64,000 nt of DNA from assembly GCA_006738865.1 (NCBI GenBank), contig AP019701.1, forward strand, positions 310,001 through 374,000. Direction: 5' to 3'. The notes beneath the pieces were generated by a model that ran no database searches, was not told the DNA's origin, and was given only the letters and a program-made list of their open reading frames with translations. Origin of the DNA: Allostella sp. ATCC 35155. GTDB lineage: Bacteria; Pseudomonadota; Alphaproteobacteria; ATCC43930; Allostellaceae. Positions 7,985 through 9,187 of this stretch are shown here, in pieces; position 1 is the stretch's first letter, and every line of letters begins with the position of its first letter. A program made the position numbers and the translations under genes.

Positions 7985-8060
7985 GGATCGCCGCGAGCCA
8001 TAGCAGCCGCCCGCCCCGCGGCCCATGCCAAGCCGGGATGGACCGCCCAGAAATCACACT

Positions 8061-8110
8061 TTCGCCGCAATCCGACCCAGCGAGTGTCGCATTCCGGCAT
8101 CAGATTGTTA
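8061..8110 (+). promoter_or_regulatory. Conserved upstream block, copy 1 (dyad)
   Basis: This 50-base block matches the block at 8361-8410 at 39 of 50 positions, exactly 300 bases apart. It contains CAATCCGA (8068-8075) and TCAGATTG (8100-8107), a near-perfect inverted repeat, plus the shared core TGTCGCATTCC. Its position just before the putative RNA suggests a promoter/operator region. No standard -35/-10 pair is clear. Confidence 0.5.
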
Positions 8111-8228
8111 TTCGTCGCAGGACACGAACGACCCTTCGGGTTCAGCGACGGTTTCAACGCCTCCTTGGCAGCACGATGCTGTCTTCGGGCGGTCACCGAC
8201 CCCCCCTCGGTGGCCGCCCATCTTTTTT
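8108..8228 (+). ncRNA. Putative small RNA or leader, copy 1
   Basis: The region after the upstream block can fold into a 5' hairpin (GTCGC at 8114-8118 with GCGAC at 8145-8149, enclosing a smaller ACCC/GGGT hairpin). A 30-base segment follows (8145-8174) that is identical to copy 2 except for one base and contains CCTCCTT, the complement of a perfect Shine-Dalgarno sequence. It ends with a strong intrinsic terminator. No convincing protein frame covers it. The 5' end is a guess from the hairpin. Conservation of the unpaired segment between copies argues for a functional RNA. It is not assigned to a known RNA family here. Confidence 0.5.
8187..8228 (+). terminator. Intrinsic terminator, RNA module copy 1
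   Basis: GGGCGGTCACCGA (8187-8199) pairs with TCGGTGGCCGCCC (8207-8219), a 13-bp stem with one wobble and a C-only loop. TCTTTTTT (8221-8228) follows directly after one base. Confidence 0.85.
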
Positions 8229-8360
8229 GTGCGCCATCTTTTTCCGCGGGCCGCCCGTTCGTGCGCTGCCGCAGACTCGTCGCGCAAGCCTCTGGTTCGG
8301 ACGCGCATTTGCCGATCCAGGATCGTGCCAACTCCATTCTGGTGCGATCAATTCCACAAT

Positions 8361-8410
8361 CTTGCCGCAATCTGACCCTGGACCTGTCGCATTCCTGCAT
8401 CAGATTGATT
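8361..8410 (+). promoter_or_regulatory. Conserved upstream block, copy 2 (perfect dyad)
   Basis: Second copy of the 50-base block. Here the dyad is perfect: CAATCTGA (8368-8375) and TCAGATTG (8400-8407), with 24 bases between. TGTCGCATTCC and GCATCAGATTG are unchanged from copy 1. Either a transcription-factor site or part of an unusual promoter; it lies upstream of RNA copy 2 and of ccmA. Confidence 0.5.
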
Positions 8411-8526
8411 GGGTCGACAGGGCCATACAGCGGTCCGCGACGGTTCCAACGCCTCCTTGGCAGCACCACGACCCGCTGCCCCTAGGGCGGTTGCCGGCCC
8501 CCCTCGGCAACCGCCCTTTCTTATTT
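8408..8526 (+). ncRNA. Putative small RNA or ccm leader, copy 2
   Basis: This copy keeps the plan of copy 1 although much of the sequence differs. There is a 5' stem (GTCG at 8413-8416 with CGAC at 8438-8441), the near-identical segment GCGACGGTTCCAACGCC plus TCCTTGGCAGCAC (8437-8466), then a terminator. Stem bases change between copies while pairing is kept. The terminator ends 19 bases before the ccmA start, so this may be either a free small RNA or a transcribed leader controlling read-through into the ccm operon. The exact ends are not determined. Confidence 0.5.
8485..8526 (+). terminator. Intrinsic terminator just upstream of ccmA
   Basis: GGGCGGTTGCCG (8485-8496) and CGGCAACCGCCC (8505-8516) form a perfect 12-bp stem with an eight-base C-rich loop. 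TTTCTTATTT follows. It is a strong Rho-independent terminator pointing towards ccmA. Confidence 0.85.
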
Positions 8527-8545
8527 CGTGCTATCACCCCCGCCG

Positions 8546-9187
8546 ATGAGCGTCTTCGCTGGATCGGGTCTCGGTTGCGTTCGCGGCGAGCGGCCGGTGT
8601 TCCGTCAGCTGTCCTTCGCGGTCGAATCCGGGACCGGCCTGACGCTGGCCGGGCCGAACGGGGCCGGCAAGAGCAGCCTCCTGCGCCTGATGGCCGGGCT
8701 GCTGCAGCCGGCCGCCGGCGGGCTGATCTGGGACGGCGCGGCGGTTACCGACGATCCCGAGGCGCACCGCGCCCGCATCGCCTGGATCGGCCATGGCGAC
8801 GGCGTCAAGCCGGGCCTGACGGCCCTGGAGAATGCGCGCTTCTGGGCCGAGATCGCCGGCGCGACGGCATCTTCGGCCGCCGCCGCGCTCGACCGCTTCG
8901 GCCTCGCCCACCTCGCCGACACCCCCGCCCGCTTCCTCTCCCAGGGTCAGCGCCGGCGCCTCGCGCTGGCCCGCCTCGTCGTCGCCCGGCGCAGCCTGTG
9001 GCTGCTCGACGAACCGACGGTCGGCCTCGATGCCGCCTCGGTCGCCGGCTTCGAGGCCGTGCTGGCCGATCATTGCCGGGCCGGCGGCATGGCCGTGCTG
9101 GCGACGCACATCCGGATCGCCGTGCCCGGCGGCCAGGTGCTCGCGCTGGGCCGGACTCCAGCCCGGGCGGCGGCCGAAGCGCGATGA
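8546..9187 (+). CDS. ccmA: Heme exporter ATPase CcmA
   Basis: The ATPase subunit (213 residues) of the CcmAB complex, which powers release of heme-loaded CcmE during cytochrome c maturation at the inner membrane. It shows Walker A GPNGAGKSS, the ABC signature LSQGQRRRLALARL and Walker B LWLLDEPTVGLD. Chosen start: ATG at 8546, because an earlier in-frame ATG at 8528 lies directly against the terminator tail. It is the first gene of ccmABCDEFGHI and overlaps ccmB by ATGA. There is no room for a normal promoter between the upstream terminator and the start codon. Confidence 0.95.
   Translation: MSVFAGSGLGCVRGERPVFRQLSFAVESGTGLTLAGPNGAGKSSLLRLMAGLLQPAAGGLIWDGAAVTDDPEAHRARIAWIGHGDGVKPGLTALENARFWAEIAGATASSAAAALDRFGLAHLADTPARFLSQGQRRRLALARLVVARRSLWLLDEPTVGLDAASVAGFEAVLADHCRAGGMAVLATHIRIAVPGGQVLALGRTPARAAAEAR

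Follow-up and report, generated by a model that had tools for sequence, protein, structure and literature searches.

Small RNAs (sRNAs) that carry C-rich loops or anti-Shine–Dalgarno (aSD) motifs and repress through Shine–Dalgarno (SD) regions are established (PMC3771888, PMC10746234, PMC12559287). In Xanthomonadaceae, sX13 is roughly 115 nt long, has stems with C-rich (4C or 5C) loops, keeps a single conserved place beside one gene, polA, and pairs with G-rich motifs near start codons (PMC3771888). NfeR1 (alpha-r14) of the Rhizobiales carries unpaired C-rich aSD motifs, present as three CCUCCUCCC, together with variable stems and a conserved upstream promoter motif, the LsrB box (TGCA-N6-GCAT), and occurs in multiple copies (PMC10746234). 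The Sis RNAs, MmgR and suhB (alpha-r8) are alphaproteobacterial siblings with a weak 5′ hairpin, a single-stranded aSD core (UUUCCUCCCU), a terminator and, usually, a link to an FGase gene (PMC12559287). AbcR1/2 (alpha-r15), which have aSD motifs, and NmsRA/B of Neisseria (PMC5362039) are tandem siblings, and the C-rich loop of GsrN in Caulobacter pairs with a run of G in the leader of an mRNA, this RNA having a sigma-EcfG promoter (GGAAC...CGTT) and usually lying beside the general stress locus (PMC5869019).

Here we analyse a stretch of 64,000 nucleotides from Allostella sp. ATCC 35155 (AP019701.1, positions 310,001 to 374,000; hereafter the window), in which a sequence-only reading had described two tandem sRNA-like modules and had assigned them to no known family. 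Their link to ccmA, which that reading did not mention, emerged here. The pair shares with sX13 its length, C-rich loops, fixed place beside one gene and, by prediction, pairing with G-rich motifs near start codons; with NfeR1 the unpaired C-rich aSD motifs, variable stems, a conserved upstream promoter motif and multiple copies; with the alpha-r8 siblings the weak 5′ hairpin, single-stranded aSD core and terminator; with AbcR1/2 and NmsRA/B the tandem arrangement, and with AbcR also aSD motifs; and with GsrN the C-rich loop, predicted to pair with G-rich mRNA sequence. It differs from all of them. Whereas sX13 belongs to Gammaproteobacteria, is Hfq-independent and has another sequence, the pair lies at ccmA, not polA; it carries one CCUCCUU per RNA plus C6 loops and a different box, not the three CCUCCUCCC and LsrB box of alpha-r14; it has neither the core nor the usual neighbour of the alpha-r8 RNAs; and AbcR1/2 and NmsRA/B differ from it in sequence and locus. 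GsrN was rejected because the upstream block has no sigma-EcfG promoter and the pair is surrounded by an MFS-like gene and ccm genes, with no general stress locus. The Rfam covariance search that the earlier reading had proposed agrees with its view, as no family in Rfam 15, including those of alpha-r14, AbcR and sX13, matches the pair or any of 20 related loci; the weak hits by E value, to ctRNA_pGA1, Xoo2 and ncS035, fall far below the gathering scores. Nor does anything in the window reach the covariance model cut-off of suhB/alpha-r8 (RF00519), whose true member in the genus lies elsewhere: each of the four Stella genomes has a suhB/MmgR RNA that scores above the Rfam cut-off, for example at 3454362–3454436 in G000. 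A search of open papers returned no description of a ccmA-linked sRNA.

Two tandem modules upstream of ccmA

The modules, each about 115 nt long (about 8113–8227 and 8412–8526, + strand), are confirmed as real and far from chance, aligning over 186 bp with 72% identity (E = 7.6 × 10−17 at window scale). The reported likeness of their upstream blocks (8061–8110 and 8361–8410) holds at 39 of 50 identical positions, compared to 29 of 50 for the runner-up match on either strand of the window, and recomputation gave the same 29 of 30 identities between the segments at 8145–8174 and 8437–8466. Both modules run in the same order: a promoter-like block of roughly 55 bp, a 5′ hairpin, a segment with CCTCCTT, then a second hairpin, and last a strong intrinsic terminator with a C6–C7 loop.

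The promoter block of copy 1 (8052–8107, +) consists of the box ATCACACTTTCGCC (8053–8066), a 19-nt spacer, a second motif, GTCGCATTC (8086–8094), and a −10-like CAGATT (8101–8106), and is common to copy 2 (8352–8407, +), the congeners and, at fixed spacing, 51 ccmA upstream regions. The two boxes score 42.8 and 33.6, the latter, of copy 2, being the second in the window. Judged from CAGATT, the 5′ ends are likely to lie near 8113 and 8412, which would give RNAs of about 115 nt. The 5′ hairpin of copy 1 spans 8113–8150 and its CCTCCTT lies at 8160–8166. The terminators with C-rich loops noted earlier are both there: that of copy 1 (8187–8227, +) has a 13-bp stem, a C7 loop (hairpin at 8187–8219) and a T-run, and that of copy 2 (8484–8526, +) a 14-bp stem and a C6 loop (hairpin at 8484–8517). 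On one side the pair is flanked by the MFS-like gene, and downstream lie ccmA (8546–9187, +; heme exporter ATPase, TIGR01189, 216 bits), which serves as the synteny anchor, and ccmB and ccmC (TIGR01190, TIGR01191).

Structure and conservation in Stella

Both predicted transcripts fold far better than shuffled sequences (z-scores of −4.6 for copy 1 and −3.8 for copy 2). Across six Stella copies the 5′ hairpin keeps an outer stem in which GTCG(C) pairs with (G)CGAC or GCGGC, while its inner stem varies in sequence and still pairs, just as the sequence-only reading had it from two copies, although the genomes of the genus are too few for strong covariation. The same reading took the conserved segment, CCTCCTT included, to be unpaired, and this stands in part: in the predicted folds UCCUU is mostly open, but four of the six copies have the first two C largely paired and the terminal GGCAGC forms part of the second hairpin. 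The C6 loop is fully open; in Stella the C-rich loop is that of the terminator, and the other C-rich stretch is the linker.

The organism belongs to the genus Stella, now Allostella, of the Rhodospirillales. In G001 and G003 both copies lie between the MFS-like gene and ccmA, immediately upstream of ccmABC as in the window, while G002 has one visible copy, inside which its contig ends. Every species has recognisable copy-1 and copy-2 types, which makes the duplication older than the species. A plain DNA search returned clear matches in congeners only, and with the exact core pattern, mismatches allowed, paired and syntenic matches were likewise confined to the genus, the remainder being chance-like. 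Scanning named genomes with the upstream-plus-core pattern returned Stella (the congener there being Stella vacuolata ATCC 43931, AP019702.1), one alphaproteobacterial MAG contig matching that of G002, and 16 others, mostly from unrelated phyla. The search of relatives by covariance model, which had also been proposed, succeeded within the genus, where a six-copy Stella model gives matches of 96–114 bits, and returned nothing significant in the sister family, whose RNAs it missed because they have diverged and which were found by synteny instead. Hfq is encoded in three of the four Stella genomes (113 bits); in the single-contig genome, G001, none was found, and the gene may be frameshifted, masked or truly lost.

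A ccmA-linked unit across Alphaproteobacteria

At the level of the class the six-copy model gives weak matches, and five of the best distant ones lie upstream of ccmA. There, in the sister family and in the class, a common layout recurs: the box AAATCACAnTTTCGCC, 19 nt, GTCRCATTC, a −10-like TA-rich hexamer (judged by eye), hairpins bearing C-rich loops and, last, an intrinsic terminator. The window copies carry the same AAATCACAnTTTCGCC-N19-GTCRCATT arrangement, with a terminator and C-rich-loop hairpins on the ccmA strand. Across Alphaproteobacteria the box occurs in 51 of 133 ccmA upstream regions and in none on the reverse strand, and is mostly followed by an RNA of roughly 110–120 nt that has C-rich hairpin loops and ends in an intrinsic terminator, the automatic trimming of RNA ends being approximate in a few of the 51. 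These counts are lowered by draft genomes and incomplete regions, and the ccmA regions of related genomes cannot be counted as independent.

Because the first box model had been scored on its own training regions, we retrained it on the order of the window alone; outside that order, 20 of 102 regions then score at least 12, compared to none on the reverse strand and 0.2 in Markov shuffles. Terminators with loops of C4 or longer number 37 on the ccmA strand and zero on the reverse in 138 ccmA upstream regions, and the 51 RNAs hold 89 C-rich hairpin loops versus 15 ± 4.5 in shuffles. Unpaired aSD-like words are only modestly enriched class-wide (36 RNAs versus 24 in shuffles), which counts against the aSD reading. 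An order-level alignment of ten members supports two stems with 6 pairs changed on both sides. What is most conserved across the class is the promoter box and the C-rich hairpin loops, the exact CCTCCTT segment being the Stella version. Two boxes occur in Stella only among the 51 regions, a count in which the upstream copy of G003 fell outside the stretch scored and was seen separately at the locus. Followed by synteny, the tandem pair proves to be a duplication, specific to the genus, of a unit that is far more widespread. One genus has a C-rich RNA-like element (a ACCTCCCCTCTC hairpin and a C-loop terminator) with no ccmA in the fetched flanks, and this may be a relocated member of the family.

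A strict box pattern matches 15 times across 43 genomes of the order, 10 of them at ccmA and 5 in unrelated sequence, which marks the box as dedicated to the ccmA-linked unit; a wider regulon was rejected for this order on the same counts. The conserved block has no clear −35 hexamer, and no sigma-70 site was found in it; the missing hexamer suggests a promoter of the activator type, so that an activator may be needed at the block.

Mode of action and alternative readings

That the modules are sibling sRNA genes is well supported by the conservation of both copies in congeners, their structure, the dedicated promoter block, the terminators and the homologous unit across the class. We consider it probable that they are two tandem members of a family that is linked to ccmA, occurs widely in Alphaproteobacteria, is duplicated in Stella and acts in trans, with the aSD segment as the best reading of how they would do so. 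Each sRNA would be transcribed from its own activator-type promoter, with its conserved box and weak −10, and would end at its own C-loop terminator; the exposed CCUCCUU linker and the CCCCCC loops would then pair with G-rich SD regions of target mRNAs and block their translation, possibly with Hfq. No conserved target stood out convincingly: exact complements of the core (GCCAAGGAGG) before an ATG are few, and across the genus only one gene recurs, which we take from its sequence to be accB (two of four species); the sole complement site present in all four Stella species lies inside a coding sequence. In two Stella species the ribosome-binding site of the accB-like gene, GCCAAGGAGGACGCATG, has 10 bases fully complementary to the sRNA core.

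The main rival reads the modules as cis-acting leaders, that is, attenuators of ccmABC whose terminators abort transcription that would otherwise reach ccmA. Throughout the class the unit does sit immediately before ccmA and in the same orientation, terminator 2 stops about 20 nt short of the ccmA ATG, and such tight synteny could equally mean a role in cis. Attenuation explains the synteny but not why Stella has two complete promoter–terminator units in series; many ccmA genes, moreover, lack the unit, and in the folds inspected nothing is more stable than the terminator stems, and no anti-terminator pairing was conspicuous. It also leaves unexplained a −10-like TGCTAT between terminator 2 and the ATG (8528–8545, +; present in the window and both congeners), possibly a separate, near-leaderless ccmA promoter, which is also found upstream of ccmA in some genomes without the RNA. 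This last argument is suggestive, since the element is not general, being common in only some of the regions (9 of the 51 box-bearing ones and 5 of the 81 that lack the box). We therefore disfavour attenuation and regard it as unlikely. Some sister-family genomes without the RNA at ccmA keep a TGCTAT- or TGGTAT-like element just before the start codon.

A sponge or decoy, in which the C-rich RNA would titrate away a G-rich RNA or an RNA-binding protein instead of silencing mRNAs, would fit the exposed C-rich loops and has a parallel in Caulobacter, where an RNA sponge is paired to aSD sRNAs (PMC12559287), but no partner was identified and we hold it to be quite improbable. Least credible is that the modules are a small open reading frame or another non-RNA repeat, such as duplicated, functionless intergenic DNA: reading frames do run mechanically through the region, but the hairpin length changes are not multiples of three, and the conserved pairing, the promoter–terminator layout and the recurrence across the class likewise speak against it.

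Implications

On the best reading, the pair and the class-wide unit form a new sRNA family that would work like the C-rich-loop and aSD sRNAs, adding to these a class-wide family absent from Rfam 15 and from the literature searched. The family is detectable by synteny and its promoter box, whereas the RNA itself changes in sequence too quickly to be traced by ordinary homology searching, and a promoter box combined with a neighbouring gene can thus reveal fast-evolving sRNAs. Linkage to ccmA points to, without establishing, a role in respiratory economy or in that of heme and cytochrome c. More tentatively, and with the balance of probability somewhat against it, an ancient alphaproteobacterial sRNA family with a dedicated promoter may couple cytochrome c maturation or heme export to the translation of respiratory or transport mRNAs, and Stella would then carry it as a duplicated pair. 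Its fixed place by ccmA turns riboregulation tied to cytochrome c biogenesis into a testable hypothesis.
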